Origin: an uncultured Ruminococcus sp.
Lineage (GTDB): Bacteria; Bacillota; Clostridia; Oscillospirales; Acutalibacteraceae
Assembly: GCA_902785355.1 (NCBI GenBank)
Contig: CACZYF010000023.1
Location: 27,274 to 69,595 of the forward strand
DNA length: 42,322 nucleotides
Direction: 5' to 3'
The position numbers and the translations under genes are program-made. Below are positions 1,736-8,246 of the stretch, in pieces. The notes under the pieces are model-generated. The model saw only the letters and a list, made by a program, of their open reading frames with translations, was not told the origin of the DNA and did not search any database. Position 1 is the stretch's first letter. The number at the start of each line of letters is the position of its first letter.

Positions 1736-1764
1736 TTGACATTTTCCGCTGTAAAAACTATAAT
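1736..1764 (+). promoter_or_regulatory. Sigma-A-type promoter of the STAS-NRPS operon
   Basis: TTGACA (1736-1741) and TATAAT (1759-1764) with a 17-base spacer, a perfect consensus promoter. Transcription would start near 1771, about 45 bases before the STAS start codon. It lies back to back with the amylase promoter, so a regulator bound between them could affect both. Confidence 0.8.
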
Positions 1765-1815
1765 TAATATGGATTCATGTTGTATGAACTAATATTAAAA
1801 AAAGAGGCGATTAAC

Positions 1816-2112
1816 ATGACTGTACAGAAAACTTTAGACGGAACCAAGCTGACCGCGGCGATCAGCGGACGACTGGATACCGCGACCACTCCCGAGGCTG
1901 AGAAGGCGCTGAAGGACGGTCTCGATAAGGTGACCGAGCTCGTGCTCGACTTTAAGGAGCTCGACTATATCTCGTCCTCCGGTCTGCGCCTGCTGCTCTC
2001 TCTGCAAAAGCAGATGAACACCCAGGGCTCGATGAAACTCATCAACGTCAATGATATCGTCGGCGAGATCTTTGAGATCACCGGTTTCGCTGATATATTG
2101 ACCGTGGAGTAA
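1816..2112 (+). CDS. STAS-domain protein, anti-sigma-factor-antagonist type
   Basis: A 98-residue single STAS domain like SpoIIAA/RsbV. The family motif reads DYISSSGLRLLL, and Ser55 occupies the position of the Ser that partner-switching kinases phosphorylate. I use ATG 1816, which has AAAGAGG upstream; an in-frame ATG at 1777 would place 13 extra residues almost on the promoter. It is the first gene of the operon and stops five bases before the NRPS gene. Known relatives bind an RsbW/SpoIIAB kinase and free a sigma factor or other partner. No such kinase or PP2C phosphatase lies in this window, so the partner is unknown. Here it may regulate or scaffold the NRPS pathway (inference). Confidence 0.88.
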   Translation: MTVQKTLDGTKLTAAISGRLDTATTPEAEKALKDGLDKVTELVLDFKELDYISSSGLRLLLSLQKQMNTQGSMKLINVNDIVGEIFEITGFADILTVE

Positions 2113-2117
2113 GCGCT

Positions 2118-5108
2118 ATGACAGATATCATCAAGCTGCTCGAACAGTACACGAAAGAAAATCCCAATGCCGCGATACTGTTCGACGACGCACATACCAA
2201 GGGCTTGACTTATACGATGCTCGACGATATGACCGGCAGGGTCTATGCGTATTTAAAGGATAAGGGCATCGGTAAAGAGGACTTCGTCCTGATCGACCTG
2301 CCTCGCGGCGTGCTGCCGATCGTTGCGATGATCGGCGTATGGAAGGCCGGCGCCGCCTGGGCGCTGGTAGAGGATACCTATGCGCCGGATCGTATCGCCT
2401 ATATCCGCGAGGACTGCGGCTGTAAGCTGGAGCTGAACGCGGATAACTGGGACGAGGTCATGCATTGGGAACCCCGCTCGGGTCACGAGGAGACCGATCC
2501 TCACGACGCGGCTTACGCGATCTATACCTCCGGTACGACCGGCAACCCCAAGGGCGTTCTGCACGAGTACGGCAACCTCAGCCGTGCGATCGAGTCCATC
2601 CGACTGGACGGCGTAAACCCCTTCAAGAGTAAGGACAGACTCGCGCTCCTCGCGCCTATGAATTTCGTCGCTTCGGTTATCGTTATCTTAGAGGTGCTGA
2701 GCATCAGCTGCGCCAAGATGTATGTCGTCAGCTACGCGACCATCAAGAACCCGCTGCTGCTCAAGGCGATGTTCCTCGAGAAGCGCATCACCATCACCTT
2801 CCTGACTCCGTCCTATGTCCGTATGCTGGGCAACCAGACGGGTCCCTTCCTGAGAATGCTGTTCGTCGGCAGCGAGCCCGCGAACAACCTGTATAACAAG
2901 AATCTCGACCTCATCAATATTTACGCCGCCTCCGAGAGCGGCTTCGCCGTCGGCGTGTTCAAGATCGACAAGGCATACGAGACCTGCCCGATCGGCAAGC
3001 CCGAGATCGACACCAAGATCACCCTGCTGACCGAGGACGGTACCGAGGCGCAGGACGGCGAGATCGGCGAGCTGTGCTTTGAGAATCCCTACGTCCGCGG
3101 CTATATCAACCTCCCCGAGGAGAGTGAGAAAGCGTTTGTCAATGGCGTCTACCACACCGGCGACCTCGCCCGCATGGAGCACGACGGCAACTATGTTCTG
3201 CTCGGACGCTCCGGCGATATGATCAAGATCAACGGCAACCGTATCGAGCCCGCCGAGATCGAAGCGGCGGTCAAGCAGGTGCTCGGCATCAATTGGGCGG
3301 CTGCACGCGGCTTTGAGGAGAACGGCACCAGCTACCTGTGTGCGTATTATACCGCCGATATCACGATCGACGAGGAGCATCTGCGCGCGGAGCTCTCCAA
3401 GCGCCTGCCGTACTACATGATCCCCGCTCACTTCATCAAGATCGACAAGGTGCCTTTGAAGAAGAACGGCAAGATGGACCGCAAGGCGCTCCCGAAGCCC
3501 GAGACCGTAGACCTCAGAACCGATTACGTCGCTCCCACCACCGAGGAGGAGGAGAAGCTCTGTCAGGCGATGGCGACGGTGCTCAAGGTCGACCGCGTCG
3601 GTATCCATGACGATTTCTATACGATGGGCGGCGACTCCCTCGGCTCGATCCGCGTGGTCGCCGAGAGCGGTCTGACGGGTCTGAACGCAGGCTTGATCTT
3701 CCGCGGCAGAACGCCCGAGAAGATCGCGGCGCTGTATCTTGAAGCCCACGCGAACGACGACGGCGAGTCGAATGACGCAAAGCTCGAGCGTTCCTTAAAG
3801 CAGGACCATCCGCTCACGGTGGAACAGCTCTACATGGTCGACTACCAGCTTTATACCCCCCGCTCCACCATGTACAACCTGTACTCGATGCTCAGGATCG
3901 ATAAGGAAAACTTCGATATGCAGAAGCTCGCCGAGACCATGCATACCGTTATCCGGCATCATCCCGCGCTGCTGACGACCTTCCACTTCAACAAGGACGG
4001 CGAGATCATCCAGCGCTATACGCCCGAGATCCTCGAGGATATCCACGTCGAGAAGATGAGCGAATTCGAGTTCGAGAACCTGAAGGATACGCTGGTACAG
4101 CCCTTTAAGATCATCGGCGGCAAGCTCTATCGCTGCCGTGTATTCGAGACCGAGAAGAACGGCTATGTATTCTTTGACGTCCACCATACGCTCTTTGACG
4201 GCACCTCGCTGAAGGTGTTCATGGGTAACGTGGGTAAGGTATATATGGGTATGATGCCCGAGACCGACTACTACTATCTGATGCTCCATAACCGTGAGAA
4301 CGAGGTCAACGATCCGTTCTATCTGGAGTCGAAGAAGTACTTCGAGGATCACTTCGAGGGCGTCGAGTGGTCGAGCCATCCCGACTTCGACCACGATTCC
4401 CGCGATAACGAGATGGGCGAGATTTTCGCCGATCTGGGTATCGAGCAGGCACAGATGAACGCCGTCGAGCGCACGTACAAGATCAGCCGCAACGAGTTCT
4501 TCATCACCGTAGCGGCGCTTGCGATCGCGGTCTATAACGATAAGCGCGATATCAAGCTCTCGTGGATCTACAACGGCCGCGAGAACATGGAGATGATGAA
4601 TACCGTCGGTCTGATGTTCCGCGATCTGCCGATCGGCTTACACCTGAACGAGAAGATGAGCCTGCGCGAGCTTTATGCCGAGGTGCATGACCAGGTGCAG
4701 AAGGGCATCGAGCACTCCTGCTACCCCTATGTCGACCTCAACGACCAGATCATCTTCGGCGAAGCGGCGTATCTGCTGTATCAGCAGGATATCCGCGATA
4801 TGGGCGGTCTCGAGGAGATGAACGTCGAGTCGATCGACATCCGCCAGAACCAGGCGGCGTCCCAGACCGTGCTCGATATGGAGATCCTCGACGGCTCCGA
4901 CGGACTCATGCTGATGATCGACTATGCCGCAAGCCTGTATGAAGACTCCAGCATGGAGAGATTCCGCGATCTCTTCGTCCGCGTCGCGCGTACGCTGGTT
5001 ACGCAGGTATCTCAGGAGGACGTCAACCTCGGAAAGCTCTATTATAAGATCATGGAGAAAACCAACATTCTCGACTTACTTATTCACAGATTCAGGAGAA
5101 AAAGATAA
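2118..5108 (+). CDS. NRPS with adenylation, carrier and condensation domains (A-T-C)
   Basis: A 996-residue synthetase. The adenylation domain (about 5-475) has YTSGTTGNPKG (136-146), HTGD (346-349), GRSGDMIKINGNRIEP (from about 362) and the catalytic Lys452 in KNGKMD. The carrier domain (about 485-555) has GGDSL with the phosphopantetheine Ser507. A condensation domain (about 564-990) has the active-site HHTLFDG (689-695). There is no thioesterase, reductase or second carrier. The normal substrate Asp of amino-acid adenylation domains is not seen; Asn182 or Val184 stands there, which suggests an aryl or other non-amino acid. The C domain would then join the acyl group to a free amine or an acceptor on another protein (inference). 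It lies five bases after the STAS gene and overlaps the esterase start. Base use matches its neighbours. Confidence 0.9.
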   Translation: MTDIIKLLEQYTKENPNAAILFDDAHTKGLTYTMLDDMTGRVYAYLKDKGIGKEDFVLIDLPRGVLPIVAMIGVWKAGAAWALVEDTYAPDRIAYIREDCGCKLELNADNWDEVMHWEPRSGHEETDPHDAAYAIYTSGTTGNPKGVLHEYGNLSRAIESIRLDGVNPFKSKDRLALLAPMNFVASVIVILEVLSISCAKMYVVSYATIKNPLLLKAMFLEKRITITFLTPSYVRMLGNQTGPFLRMLFVGSEPANNLYNKNLDLINIYAASESGFAVGVFKIDKAYETCPIGKPEIDTKITLLTEDGTEAQDGEIGELCFENPYVRGYINLPEESEKAFVNGVYHTGDLARMEHDGNYVLLGRSGDMIKINGNRIEPAEIEAAVKQVLGINWAAARGFEENGTSYLCAYYTADITIDEEHLRAELSKRLPYYMIPAHFIKIDKVPLKKNGKMDRKALPKPETVDLRTDYVAPTTEEEEKLCQAMATVLKVDRVGIHDDFYTMGGDSLGSIRVVAESGLTGLNAGLIFRGRTPEKIAALYLEAHANDDGESNDAKLERSLKQDHPLTVEQLYMVDYQLYTPRSTMYNLYSMLRIDKENFDMQKLAETMHTVIRHHPALLTTFHFNKDGEIIQRYTPEILEDIHVEKMSEFEFENLKDTLVQPFKIIGGKLYRCRVFETEKNGYVFFDVHHTLFDGTSLKVFMGNVGKVYMGMMPETDYYYLMLHNRENEVNDPFYLESKKYFEDHFEGVEWSSHPDFDHDSRDNEMGEIFADLGIEQAQMNAVERTYKISRNEFFITVAALAIAVYNDKRDIKLSWIYNGRENMEMMNTVGLMFRDLPIGLHLNEKMSLRELYAEVHDQVQKGIEHSCYPYVDLNDQIIFGEAAYLLYQQDIRDMGGLEEMNVESIDIRQNQAASQTVLDMEILDGSDGLMLMIDYAASLYEDSSMERFRDLFVRVARTLVTQVSQEDVNLGKLYYKIMEKTNILDLLIHRFRRKR

Positions 5109-6808
5109 TGCCGCAGAAGAAAAATAATTCTGCTGCTATGTCCCCCGGGGAGCGAGTCCGCAGTACCTACGGCGTGAATCGCTCCATCACGGGCGAATAT
5201 GACGCCGCGCTTGCTGCTCGCTGTGTCAACGGCACCTTTGTCGGCAGGGCTGACGGCGACATTACCGTTTTCCGCGGGATCCCGTTCGCAAAGCCGCCTG
5301 TCGGCGGGCTGCGCTGGAAGCGTCCCGCTCCCGTCGAGCCCGACAGCGGCGTTTATGAGGCGTACTTTAACGGCAAGAGTCCCATCCAGACCGAGTGGCA
5401 CACCGAACAGGCGTCCTATTACCCGCAGGGCGAGGACTGCCTGTATCTGAACGTATGGGTCAACCGCGCCTGCGACGTGAAGGACAAGACCGTCATGGTG
5501 TTCCTCCACGGCGGCGCCTACGGCTGGGGCGGTACTGCCGATCCGCTGTATGACGGCGCGAACTTCGTGCGTGCCAACCCCGATATCGTGCTCGTCACCG
5601 TCGCCTACCGCACGGGATTGATGGGCTTTGTCGACCTGTCTTACTTTGCCGGCGGTGAGGAATACCCCGACGCGCCGAACCTCGGACTGCTCGACCAGAT
5701 CGAGGCGCTGCGCTGGGTGCGCGGGAACATCCGCTCCTTCGGCGGAGATCCCGGAAACGTGACCATTTTCGGCGAGTCAGCCGGAGGCGGCAGCGTGTCG
5801 CTTTTACCGCTCATCCCCGAGGCGAAGGGACTGTTTCGCCGCGTGATCGCCGAGAGCGGCTCCGTGGCGCTGACCTTCTCGAAGAAGGAGTGCAGGGAGT
5901 TCACCCGTCGCTTGATGAAGGAGAGCGGAATCCGATCGATGAAGATGTTGAGCGCGCTGACCGAAAGTCAGCTCCGCTCCCTGAATGAAAAGCTGAATAT
6001 CTATAACAACTATCCGCAGCGCGACGGCAGGCTGATCCCCGAGGATCCTTATACGCCGTATGAGAACGGCACAACCGCCGATGTGGATATGCTGATCGGA
6101 ACCAACGCCGACGAGATGAACTACTGGGTCAGCGAGATCGGCGGCATTGTGCCGTACCGTTTCAGCATTCCCGTGAAGTTTGAGAATGATTACAGGACCC
6201 TCAGCCGCGTCGCAAAACGGCGCGTTGATCTCTTTATGAAGCTGCAGAAGGGTCAGAAGAGCCACAGCATCTGGGCTATGTCGGAGTTCTACGATGAGAT
6301 GATGTTCCGCCTGCCCGCCGTGAAGCAGGCTTCGGAACACGCGAAGAACGGCGGTAAAGCGTTTATGTACTACTGGACGCAGCCGTCGACGAACTCCTTC
6401 TGCGACGCATGTCACGCGGTTGAGCTTGCGTATGTATTCGGTAATCTTGACGAGACCATCTACACCGGTGAGCGCGGGGACGAGAAGCTCTGCCGCACGG
6501 TGATGGAGATGTGGACGAGCTTCGCCCGCACCGGCGACCCCTCCGTCGAGGGGCTCGAGTGGCTCCCGTATGAAACCGAAAACCGCTTTACGATGGAGCT
6601 GTGTACCGAGCCGAAGCTCAGGAAGGATATTTTGCCTGAGCAGCGCGCGCTGCTGACGCCGCTCTTGCGTTACAAGATCAACCCCTCCTACGCTACGCTG
6701 GACTATAACGTCCCCTTCGTGCGAAAGACGGCGGGTATCATCGCGCTGGGCGTGACCTCCGCGATCGCCCTGGGTATCTCGGCGTATAAGTTTTTGAAAA
6801 GTGAATAG
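5108..6808 (+). CDS. Type B carboxylesterase with C-terminal membrane segment
   Basis: A 566-residue alpha/beta hydrolase of the carboxylesterase/para-nitrobenzyl esterase family. The triad is visible: Ser224 in GESAGG, Glu336 in NADEMNYW and His436 in CHAVELAYVFG. The oxyanion segment is FLHGGAYGWG. Family proteins run about 490-550 residues. A hydrophobic stretch near 541-560 followed by KFLKSE looks like a C-terminal membrane anchor; no clear N-terminal signal peptide is present, so it may be a tail-anchored cytoplasmic enzyme. Its ATG overlaps the NRPS stop (TAATG), implying coupled translation. It could hydrolyse, trim or release the NRPS product; the substrate is unknown. Confidence 0.9.
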   Translation: MPQKKNNSAAMSPGERVRSTYGVNRSITGEYDAALAARCVNGTFVGRADGDITVFRGIPFAKPPVGGLRWKRPAPVEPDSGVYEAYFNGKSPIQTEWHTEQASYYPQGEDCLYLNVWVNRACDVKDKTVMVFLHGGAYGWGGTADPLYDGANFVRANPDIVLVTVAYRTGLMGFVDLSYFAGGEEYPDAPNLGLLDQIEALRWVRGNIRSFGGDPGNVTIFGESAGGGSVSLLPLIPEAKGLFRRVIAESGSVALTFSKKECREFTRRLMKESGIRSMKMLSALTESQLRSLNEKLNIYNNYPQRDGRLIPEDPYTPYENGTTADVDMLIGTNADEMNYWVSEIGGIVPYRFSIPVKFENDYRTLSRVAKRRVDLFMKLQKGQKSHSIWAMSEFYDEMMFRLPAVKQASEHAKNGGKAFMYYWTQPSTNSFCDACHAVELAYVFGNLDETIYTGERGDEKLCRTVMEMWTSFARTGDPSVEGLEWLPYETENRFTMELCTEPKLRKDILPEQRALLTPLLRYKINPSYATLDYNVPFVRKTAGIIALGVTSAIALGISAYKFLKSE

Positions 6809-6817
6809 AGAAAAGGA

Positions 6818-6853
6818 AACGGCAGTCGGAATCCCGGCTGCCGTTGCTGTTTG
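6818..6853 (+). terminator. Terminator after the esterase gene
   Basis: A 12-pair stem with one G-T pair (6818-6829 with 6834-6845, loop AATC) begins ten bases after the esterase stop and is followed by GCTGTTTGT. The T run is modest. It would end the STAS-NRPS-esterase transcript. Confidence 0.65.
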
Positions 6854-6860
6854 TATAAAT

Positions 6861-6940
6861 CGTCATTGCGAGGGCTGCGCCCGCGGCAATCTCAACCGAT
6901 TAAAACGTCATTGCGAGGAGCACAAGCTCCGCGATAATCC
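6861..6940 (+). repeat. Two CGTCATTGCGAG hairpin repeat units
   Basis: Units start at 6,861 and 6,906 with CGTCATTGCGAG. Each contains a small hairpin, GGGC/GCCC in the first and GGAGC/GCTCC in the second, and ends in a GCAATCTC or GATAATCC block. Similar CGTCATTGCGAG repeats are widespread in bacterial intergenic DNA. Confidence 0.75.
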
Positions 6941-6948
6941 TAATCGGG

Positions 6949-7506
6949 TTATGCCCACGGGTCGGCGGACTTCGGCGGGCGGATACCGACGAGGATCATC
7001 TGCTCGCTGAGGTACCATTTGCCCTCGCTCGGCTTCAATCTCAGCTTGATCTGACGGGGCGAATCGGCGCCGCCGGAGGTCAGGTGCAGGGTCGCCCGGC
7101 CCTCGTTTTGGAACGAATACGGATTCGAGAAAACGGTCAGGGTGAAGGGCTTGTCGGGCGAGTAGCTGTTTTCGGGCACAGCTCCCTTGAAGTAGGAGAA
7201 CGGCACGAGCTTTGAGTCACGGAAGCGGTCGTTGAGAAAGCTGATCTCATAGGGCGAGAGGGGAGCGGGTCCCTTGAGAAAGTTCAGCATCTCGGTACCG
7301 ATCGCGGGAGCGGCGGCGTAGGCGCACAGCGCGCATACGGTCAGCGCGGCGGTCTTGTAGGGCGTGTCGAGCGCCGCTTCGGGCAGGGCTTTCAGCTCCT
7401 GTACGCTCTCGGGCAGGCGTTCAAATGTAAAGGTGAAGCTGCCTTCCTCGGGCTTTGCTGCGGGAGCGGGTGCAGCGGGCTGATTCAGACTGTCAAATAT
7501 ACTCAT
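6949..7506 (-). CDS. Protein of unknown function, possibly DUF6935 family
   Basis: A 185-residue soluble protein. It has an Ala/Pro-rich N-terminal linker (about 8-22), an LPESVQELKALPEAALDTPYK segment, a small Ala-rich hydrophobic helix (CALCAYAAAPAIG), and a C-terminal half with alternating strands ending in an IRPPKSADPWA tail. From memory this resembles Pfam DUF6935, which I could not check. The start at 7506 is chosen because AAGGAGG sits seven bases upstream; an ATG at 7512 is only one base from it. It lies between the esterase and PPTase genes on the other strand and has its own promoter, so membership in the NRPS pathway is unproven. Confidence 0.7.
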   Translation of the reverse strand: MSIFDSLNQPAAPAPAAKPEEGSFTFTFERLPESVQELKALPEAALDTPYKTAALTVCALCAYAAAPAIGTEMLNFLKGPAPLSPYEISFLNDRFRDSKLVPFSYFKGAVPENSYSPDKPFTLTVFSNPYSFQNEGRATLHLTSGGADSPRQIKLRLKPSEGKWYLSEQMILVGIRPPKSADPWA

Positions 7507-7527
7507 GTTCATTCCTCCTTTTCTTTC

Positions 7528-7556
7528 ATCATACCATCCCGCCCGCGTTTTGTAAA
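7528..7556 (-). promoter_or_regulatory. Promoter of the unknown gene at 6,949-7,506
   Basis: Minus strand TTTACA (7551-7556) and TATGAT (7528-7533) with 17 bases between. It lies just upstream of the AAGGAGG site. Confidence 0.6.
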
Positions 7557-7563
7557 TAAGTAT

Positions 7564-7592
7564 TTGCAACTTAGCGCAGTTTGTTGTATGAT
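7564..7592 (+). promoter_or_regulatory. Promoter of the PPTase gene
   Basis: TTGCAA (7564-7569) and TATGAT (7587-7592), spacer 17, start site near 7599. This excludes upstream in-frame starts and supports ATG 7621. It is divergent from the promoter at 7,528-7,556. Confidence 0.65.
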
Positions 7593-7620
7593 GGATGTAT
7601 CAAAATTATTCGGAGTCGCT

Positions 7621-8232
7621 ATGAAGATCGCTTATGTCACGACCGGGGGCTTGACCTTCGGTATGTTAACGGAATATCTCCCGCTTCTGCCCCCTGAGCG
7701 GCAGGAGAAGATCATGCGCTATCGCTTTGAAGAGGATAAGCTGCGTTCGCTGCTTGCGGGTCTGCTGATCCGCCGCGTCACGGGCGGCGCGCCCCTGCGC
7801 TGCGGCGAGCACGGCAAGCCGCTGTGTGACGGCGTGAACTTCTCTGTATCGCACAGCGGAGAGCTCGTCGCGATCGCTGTCGGCGACTGTGCGGTCGGCC
7901 TCGACGTCGAGCAGATACCGCCGGAGGATCGGCTGAAGATCGCCGACCGCTTCTACCATCCCGCCGAGCGGGCGTATGTACACGGTGCGGATGATCCGCC
8001 GGTCGCCTTCTGTGAGATCTGGACGCGGAAGGAAGCGGTGCTCAAGATGACGGGGGAGGGGATAGCAACCGACCTGACCGCCTTCGATACCACCGCTGAG
8101 TCGCTGAGCGGTCAGCTCTTTACGACAAGGCTCGGCGACTGCTGTCTGTCCCTCTGCACGGAAATGCCGCTCGAGGATAATGACATTCAAATTTCTGAAT
8201 TAGAATTAAAAGAATTACGGCTGTCGGATTGA
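7621..8232 (+). CDS. 4'-phosphopantetheinyl transferase, Sfp type
   Basis: A 203-residue enzyme that moves the phosphopantetheine arm of coenzyme A onto a carrier-protein Ser, here most likely Ser507 of the NRPS. Signature motifs are VGLDVEQ with Asp95 and Glu97, and EIWTRKEAVLK with Glu132, Lys137 and Glu138, which bind Mg and CoA. It is slightly shorter than Sfp (about 224 residues). The start is ATG 7621 with GGAG at the right distance; a longer open frame from 7564 runs through the promoter. It is monocistronic and its stop lies inside its own terminator. A dedicated Sfp-type enzyme 0.8 kb from the NRPS operon suggests the locus is self-sufficient. Confidence 0.9.
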   Translation: MKIAYVTTGGLTFGMLTEYLPLLPPERQEKIMRYRFEEDKLRSLLAGLLIRRVTGGAPLRCGEHGKPLCDGVNFSVSHSGELVAIAVGDCAVGLDVEQIPPEDRLKIADRFYHPAERAYVHGADDPPVAFCEIWTRKEAVLKMTGEGIATDLTAFDTTAESLSGQLFTTRLGDCCLSLCTEMPLEDNDIQISELELKELRLSD

Positions 8233-8246
8233 CAGCCGTTTTTTTC
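8217..8246 (+). terminator. Rho-independent terminator of the PPTase gene
   Basis: ACGGCTGTC (8217-8225), loop GGATT, GACAGCCGT (8231-8239), then a run of eight T. The PPTase stop TGA is in the loop. Confidence 0.9.

Follow-up and report, generated by a model that had tools for sequence, protein, structure and literature searches.

The window (the whole stretch of 42,322 nucleotides analysed here) carries an operon in which a gene for a STAS-domain switch protein, a gene for an A-T-C non-ribosomal peptide synthetase (NRPS) and a carboxylesterase gene follow one another and, judging from gene order in related genomes, constitute a real unit that is conserved in gut and rumen bacteria. This unit probably makes a small molecule, for which the sequence-only reading had proposed an acyl-amide. 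In our main reading, to which we give a probability of about 0.6, the operon would be the biosynthetic arm of an NRPS-exporter system of rumen and gut Clostridia under the control of a partner switch; the STAS protein would act on the exporter post-translationally, and the substrate of the synthetase would not be an ordinary alpha-amino acid. The features of the region, with their coordinates in the window, were the following:

1736-1764, forward strand: sigma-70-type promoter of the STAS-NRPS-esterase operon, perfect TTGACA-17-TATAAT, 12/12 (motif scan)
1816-2112, forward strand: STAS-domain switch protein, 98 aa (Pfam STAS, 55.3 bits)
2118-5108, forward strand: A-T-C non-ribosomal peptide synthetase, 996 aa (Pfam AMP-binding, PP-binding and Condensation)
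2142-3473, forward strand: adenylation (A) domain of the NRPS, signature VAIFFGIFAK (alignment to LgrA; Pfam AMP-binding, 165 bits)
3552-3665, forward strand: carrier (T) domain of the NRPS, with Ser507 (codon 3636-3638) in GGDSL (Pfam PP-binding, 25.1 bits)
3807-5018, forward strand: C-terminal condensation (C) domain of the NRPS, HHTLFDG intact (Pfam Condensation, 129.4 bits)
5108-6808, forward strand: type-B carboxylesterase, 566 aa (Pfam COesterase, 335.9 bits)
6818-6845, forward strand: terminator-like hairpin 3' of the esterase gene, with a weak T run (hairpin scan)
6949-7506, reverse strand: divergent DUF6935 gene, a neighbour outside the unit (Pfam)
7621-8232, forward strand: Sfp-type phosphopantetheinyl transferase (PPTase; Pfam ACPS, 60 bits)

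The arrangement described in the sequence-only reading (a perfect promoter, a STAS gene, an NRPS gene after a five-base gap, an overlapping esterase gene, a divergent gene and an Sfp-type PPTase gene) was thus recovered. The STAS gene likely starts at ATG 1816, behind AAAGAGG, its start in the list of open reading frames being ATG 1777. Five bases lie between its stop (2112) and the ATG of the NRPS gene (2118), and the NRPS stop shares one base with the ATG of the esterase gene (5108). Promoter-like sites numbered 8 in the region against 3.8 +/- 1.8 in shuffled sequences, and terminator-like sites were no commoner than chance (6 in the region, 5.6 in shuffles). At 1690-1764 there are two perfect sigma-70 promoters (12/12 each), arranged back to back between an amylase-family gene and the STAS gene. 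A perfect promoter was rejected as a conserved trait of the unit: in a scan of the stretch from 300 to 570 bases ahead of the NRPS gene, valid for 41 loci, only L040, L041 and L072 had a 12/12 site. The scan row of L077 is an artefact, this locus beginning inside the NRPS gene with no upstream sequence. Like the locus of the window, L040, L041 and L072 had no match to a PP2C phosphatase, kinase or MATE exporter ahead of the STAS gene.

Gene order was compared in 60 genomes of the same genus, the own genome included. Some NRPS match at E <= 0.001 was found in 59 of them, and 26, again counting the own genome, carried a full-length copy of the synthetase at 71% identity or more. One further genome (G039, locus L064) contained a relative at 50%, with the STAS gene downstream. 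The STAS gene was located directly upstream of the orthologous NRPS gene in 25 of the 26 loci, being missing in L052 (genome G058), and the esterase gene directly downstream in 23, being missing in L060-L062. Only 7 PF01740 matches occur in the 2.2 Mb of the own genome, so the adjacency of STAS and NRPS genes in 25 of 26 loci is not due to chance. The sequence-only reading had grouped STAS protein, synthetase and esterase, and had named a lack of conserved order in related genomes as the sign of an accidental association; within the genus the order was kept, so the three genes hold as a unit there.

Outside the genus the distribution was patchy. A family sample of 300 genomes (including the own genome, G039 and at least two more members of the genus) yielded orthologues in four genomes of other genera at 69-71% and in one at 37%; in a phylum sample of 398 genomes, the orthologue occurred in the own genome and in one other, at 68%. 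The four family loci from other genera (L098-L101) had a STAS gene directly upstream and an esterase match directly downstream, that of L099 being of only 52% in a frame that looked interrupted. Twelve named loci came from assemblies of uncultured Clostridiales, Clostridia, Oscillospiraceae, Ruminococcaceae, Lachnospiraceae and Ruminococcus, several of them RUG or roe deer omasum or abomasum assemblies, and from two named strains, Butyrivibrio sp. LC3010 (NRPS at 61%) and Lachnospiraceae bacterium NC2004 (58%), in the latter of which NRPS, MATE and STAS genes occur together. In these loci the STAS gene was directly upstream of the NRPS gene in L069, L070, L072 and L079 and downstream in L073, L074, L075 and L080; no STAS match was found in the fetched stretch of L071, L076 or L078, and none in L103. 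L076 and L103 are apparently the same contig (both 51,747 bases), and L076 was left out of the alignments. In a tree of 42 synthetases, four members of the genus grouped with three rows from other genera at 100/100, and the Lachnospiraceae rows L103 and L078 were placed with Oscillospiraceae rows on starred branches; the positions of the long branches L064 and L080 are unsafe. These groupings across genera and families fit horizontal transfer.

To see what accompanies the unit, genes neighbouring the NRPS loci were clustered, and representatives were analysed with Pfam. The clusters listed included three partners: a PP2C phosphatase of the SpoIIE type, a HATPase_c_2 kinase of 136 aa, and a MATE exporter of 589 aa that carries a C-terminal HATPase_c_2 domain. 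A Bax-inhibitor-like membrane protein and an unassigned protein of about 230 aa were less regular neighbours. In the 25 other loci of the genus, several of which lie on short contigs, the phosphatase was found in 15, the kinase in 14 and the cassette-type MATE in 7. All six genes occurred together in five genus loci (L046, L048, L049, L051 and L057) as well as in two of the named loci, L069 and L070, the kinase of L070 being fused to the phosphatase. L079 showed the order of L069 and L070 up to the NRPS gene, where the locus ends. Other orders were PP2C-HATPase, NRPS, MATE and STAS in L080, and NRPS, MATE, STAS, kinase and PP2C in L074 and L075. A Bax-inhibitor-1-like gene recurred near the cassette in L041, L043, L044, L046, L049, L056 and L069, and also near a PP2C-kinase pair on contig C32 of the own genome (L104:8271-9107).

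The own locus contains neither a PP2C phosphatase nor a HATPase kinase, and relatives of the partners are encoded elsewhere in the own genome: of the MATE exporter at 64% on contig C22 (L067:13728-15494), of the phosphatase at 66% on contig C38 (L107:4867-6306), and of the kinase at 44-49% on contig C32, beside another PP2C gene and the Bax-inhibitor-like gene. The earlier statement that the system has no transporter is not supported, a MATE exporter being part of the locus in some relatives and its 64% relative being present on another own contig. When the MATE of L051 was used as query against the 60 genus genomes, 16 matches at E <= 1e-90 were obtained. Fourteen genomes had a MATE at 56% or more, and all 14 had the synthetase; in seven of them (the own genome, G021, G024, G052, G053, G055 and G058) the MATE gene was on a contig other than that of the synthetase. 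The two weaker matches (36-37%) were in G012, which has the synthetase, and in G019, which lacks it. Co-occurrence gave a Fisher p of 5.6e-7 for the 14 genomes and of 3.3e-4 for the seven other-contig cases alone, in a test that ignores shared ancestry. No MATE at 56% or more was found in 12 of the 26 synthetase genomes.

The individual components were compared with known partner-switch proteins. PDB matches of the STAS protein were 4hyl, RsbV (6m36_B) and SpoIIAA (1th8_B). Its Ser54 (codon 1975-1977) aligned with Ser58 of SpoIIAA, which we take to be the phospho-acceptor, and this position was Ser in all 38 STAS rows, in agreement with the assignment of the protein to partner switching in the sequence-only reading. 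The solo kinases keep the N-box and glycine motifs, and that of L048 matched RsbW (6m36, E 7e-5). The domain of the cassette-type MATE keeps the N-box (EEL..N) and has Cys for the glycine of DxG in each of the 11 aligned sequences. It may accordingly bind STAS while lacking kinase activity; the MATE domains of the type found on own contig C27 keep DNG. In an hhalign comparison, 11 MATE domains matched 8 solo kinases at 90.8%. An AlphaFold2 model of the C-terminal domain of the L069 MATE (mean pLDDT 64, from 3 sequences) was searched with Foldseek, and ranks 1-18 (E 2e-7 to 2e-4) were chains of SpoIIAB, RsbV/RsbW, UsfX-RsfB and sigF/anti-sigma-factor entries, several of them complexes with a STAS partner; rank 20 was a chain of the SiaB-SiaC complex. 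As modelled, the domain resembles the SpoIIAB/RsbW fold. Among 14 MATE proteins of about 566-615 aa, HATPase_c_2 was over the Pfam cut-off in 8, including L051 and L069, below it in 3 (the own-genome copy with 26.8 against 27.4 bits) and without match in 3. The MATEs of L074 and L080 lacked the C-terminal extension (2/2).

Similar neighbourhoods were found around other NRPS genes of the genus. A PF00668 match was present in 40 of the 60 genomes, and NRPS genes are thus common but not universal in the genus. From the NRPS matches in these genomes, 20 loci of other NRPS genes were chosen. A MATE gene adjoined the NRPS gene in 15, and in the other five (L121, L125, L129, L138 and L140) the NRPS gene runs into a contig end; PP2C was present in 12 of the 20 and STAS in 13 (on the opposite strand in L139). 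Ten MATEs of such loci all had C-terminal extensions comparable in length (whole proteins of 566-615 aa), with HATPase_c_2 over the cut-off in five, below it in two and without match in three. One of these clusters lies on own contig C27 (L068), in the order STAS, NRPS, MATE with HATPase_c_2, PP2C-HATPase fusion and second STAS. As in the window operon, the STAS gene is directly upstream of the NRPS gene; unlike it, the cluster encodes an A-T-C-A-T-reductase NRPS (1978 aa, 31% identical to the window NRPS), and no esterase match was found in the fetched stretch. A small dockerin-domain protein is encoded after the MATE gene on own contig C22 (L067:13353-13724), and a related protein past the STAS gene on C27 (L068:5128-5496); it is possible that the genus produces cellulosomes. 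In G046:C146, G034:C6, G042:C1 and G050:C8, large NRPS frames are interrupted by a single in-frame stop codon and could be split genes, decayed genes or assembly errors.

Taken as a working model, the kinase would phosphorylate Ser54 of the STAS protein, and the phosphatase, upon a signal, would remove this phosphate. Unphosphorylated STAS would bind the MATE exporter at its kinase-like domain, and perhaps the synthetase as well. Product synthesis and export would thereby be switched on post-translationally, with no evident sigma factor between. We infer that the kinase-like domain of the exporter is the likely target of the switch. A wider proposal, which we find conceivable and somewhat short of an even chance, is that a sigma-independent switch of this kind, with dephosphorylated STAS docking on the SpoIIAB/RsbW-like domain of the MATE, gates export generally for NRPS products of rumen and gut Clostridia, and possibly of methanogens, having spread between families by horizontal transfer. 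Classical partner switching would explain the same genes in another way: an RsbW-like anti-sigma kinase would be made by the STAS protein to release a sigma factor whose gene lies elsewhere, and control would be transcriptional. STAS, kinase and PP2C are the textbook set for such a switch, and the authors who described a cluster of this kind in Methanobrevibacter ruminantium read it as sensing and regulating NRPS expression (PMC2812497). However, no sigma factor was found in the six recurrent neighbour clusters put through Pfam (c3-c5 and c7-c9, but not c10-c12 with three loci each), the promoter of the window operon is a perfect one of the housekeeping type, and a target is at hand within the locus in the form of an exporter fused to a kinase-like domain. 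We regard transcriptional control as unlikely.

Analysis of the synthetase gave indications about the chemistry. AMP-binding, PP-binding and Condensation were all over their Pfam cut-offs, and AMP-binding_C was just under (22.7 against 24.5 bits); among the NCBIfam matches listed (25 of 105), no family reached its cut-off for the NRPS. The motif TSGTTG was present in 43 of 43 NRPS rows aligned, GGDSL in all of the 41 rows for which this motif was listed, and HHxxxDG in 42 of 43, the remaining row lacking that stretch. Ser507 is the serine of the GGDS motif of the carrier domain. The best PDB match was the linear gramicidin synthetase LgrA, from which the A-T-C protein differs in that LgrA is multi-modular and carries Asp in its first A domain at position 235 (in what we take to be PheA numbering), where our proteins have V or I. 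Asp235 holds the alpha-amino group of the substrate, and its presence marks activation of alpha-amino acids. In the alignment to LgrA it was replaced by Val in the window protein; the position was V or I in 43 of 43 rows, 28 of which had the signature VAIFFGIFAK, and Val was likewise present in the first A domain of each of the four C27-type synthetases analysed. Among 22 A domains from other NRPSs, the same script gave Asp for 6, and several of those without it were visibly misaligned; signatures of second and third A domains of large NRPSs were dropped, several being misplaced with SFD visible some columns off. Because the A domain is without Asp235, the substrate is probably not an ordinary alpha-amino acid but another carboxylic acid, which the synthetase would load in our model. 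Beside the unit of G018 (L059:856-4470), and seen once, are genes for a TPP/ferredoxin 2-oxoacid oxidoreductase pair and an AMP-binding protein that presumably resembles phenylacetate-CoA ligase; they possibly supply the acid. On own contig C22, that of the MATE relative, two proteins with HTH, cupin and AMP-binding ligase domains are encoded beside 2-oxoacid oxidoreductase genes (L067:4204-9372).

A C domain at the C-terminus is able to release a product on its own if its HHxxxDG motif is intact. The window protein keeps this motif, and release by condensation with a soluble nucleophile, which would be a small amine or alcohol, is therefore likely. The esterase is a type-B carboxylesterase with a COesterase domain and conserved triad motifs (the Ser in GESAGG, and motifs that we take to hold the Glu and His): GESAG and ACHA were present in 30 of 32 rows, and the other two were short rows without the stretch (L071, 132 aa, where the locus ends; L099, 19 aa, its frame interrupted or mis-set). 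Its nearest PDB matches were the carboxylic ester hydrolase 8wdm and p-nitrobenzyl esterase. By eye, the esterase has a conserved hydrophobic C-terminal tail. The C-terminal tail of the synthetases is basic (RRKR or RRKK in 9 of 12 rows listed); the two tails may place both proteins at the membrane, where the tethered esterase would trim, release or inactivate the product. An off-loading role, in which the esterase replaces a thioesterase and cleaves the acyl-carrier thioester and not the finished product, would suit the lack of a TE domain in the NRPS protein (Pfam), the translational overlap of the two genes and their linkage in 23 of 26 loci. Against it stand the C domain, which can release the product itself, and the NRPS genes without an adjacent esterase match in L060-L062, L064, L073-L075 and L080, so that we look on this role as rather doubtful.

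Our main reading, with the exporter as the output of the switch, has also to be weighed against a direct action of STAS on the synthetase, as a docking or gating subunit, with the exporter controlled separately. The closer linkage of STAS to the NRPS gene (25 of 26 genus loci, against a cassette-type MATE on the same contig in 7 of 26) speaks for such an action, as does the STAS gene ahead of the 31%-identical NRPS on C27. In L064, L073-L075 and L080, however, the STAS gene is downstream of the NRPS gene, and in L052, L071, L078 and L103 no STAS match was found; moreover, we know of no NRPS with a STAS subunit. Direct action on the synthetase is, in our judgement, a little less probable than transcriptional control.

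The genes around the operon do not share its conservation. PPTase, DUF6935 and amylase genes adjoined the unit only in the own species, that is, in the own locus and in L072 (NRPS 98% identical), and they were rejected as members. No PPTase gene was present beside the NRPS gene within an equivalent distance in any of the 25 other genus loci, of which L039, L041, L045 and L051 end too early and L060 just short; in L056 a PPTase match (29%) lay 10.7 kb from the unit. The DUF6935 gene was beside an orthologue only in L072 besides the own locus, and a relative of the amylase gene (65%) was located about 7 kb upstream in L041. The PPTase had been counted as a member of the group in the sequence-only reading, an assignment that is not supported. 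Since it is the only PF01648 match in the own genome, it is probably the only PPTase there and would serve all carrier proteins of the genome without belonging to the unit; no separate AcpS was found in the PF01648 search, and the PPTase may load the fatty-acid ACP as well as the NRPS carriers. Accidental grouping, which holds for these three neighbours, is rejected as virtually inconceivable for the three-gene core, given its conservation in the genus (25 of 26 loci for STAS, 23 of 26 for the esterase) and in L098-L101.

To our knowledge, the products and control of NRPS clusters of rumen bacteria are almost unexplored. The recurrence of STAS, PP2C, kinase and MATE genes beside NRPS genes suggests one signalling logic for many clusters, and the switch genes offer a way to find such clusters. 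The system is not categorically new: NRPSs, MATE exporters and partner switching are all familiar, and there is one earlier description of a similar neighbourhood. What is new is the generality of the arrangement and, possibly, direct control of an exporter. In M. ruminantium M1, mru0066-mru0071 comprise an NRPS gene amid genes for two serine phosphatases, an anti-sigma factor antagonist (STAS) and a MatE protein, and a further (third) cluster, mru0513-0516, encodes a PPTase, a phosphatase, an antagonist and a kinase; the authors of the 2010 report read these clusters as serving sensing, expression control and export (PMC2812497). The earlier description of the pathway as undescribed was thus too broad for the STAS/phosphatase/MATE/NRPS neighbourhood, given this precedent (PMC2812497), and it stands for the STAS-A-T-C-esterase order, which we did not find in print. 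Among the papers listed from the open-licence literature, outside which most subscription papers fall, no second comparable locus was seen, PMC6118326 and PMC11747023 showing nothing on this one, and in these searches we found neither that order and its spread nor the kinase-like domain of the MATE nor the dispersed arrangement of the own genome.

The M. ruminantium cluster is like the cassette of Clostridia in that STAS, serine phosphatases and a MatE efflux protein flank the NRPS; it differs in its archaeal host and in an NRPS of two C-A-T modules with a terminal release domain in place of A-T-C, and, as described in the available part of the report, it comes with no mention of an esterase or of a kinase-like MATE domain and with regulation understood as regulation of expression (PMC2812497). 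The RsbU/RsbV/RsbW and SpoIIE/SpoIIAA/SpoIIAB switches of B. subtilis share the PP2C phosphatase, the HATPase_c_2 kinase and the STAS serine at the same place. Compared with them, no sigma factor was found among the recurrent neighbours tested, and the position of the output is taken by an NRPS, frequently together with a MATE that has a kinase-like domain. The SiaABCD system of P. aeruginosa is a partner switch with a non-sigma output, acting on a diguanylate cyclase. In having such an output it is like the system proposed here, and a chain of its SiaB-SiaC complex (6kko) matched the MATE domain; it differs in that the output is a cyclase, not an exporter or an NRPS. An exporter with a built-in domain like that of anti-sigma kinases would be a new output for partner switching.
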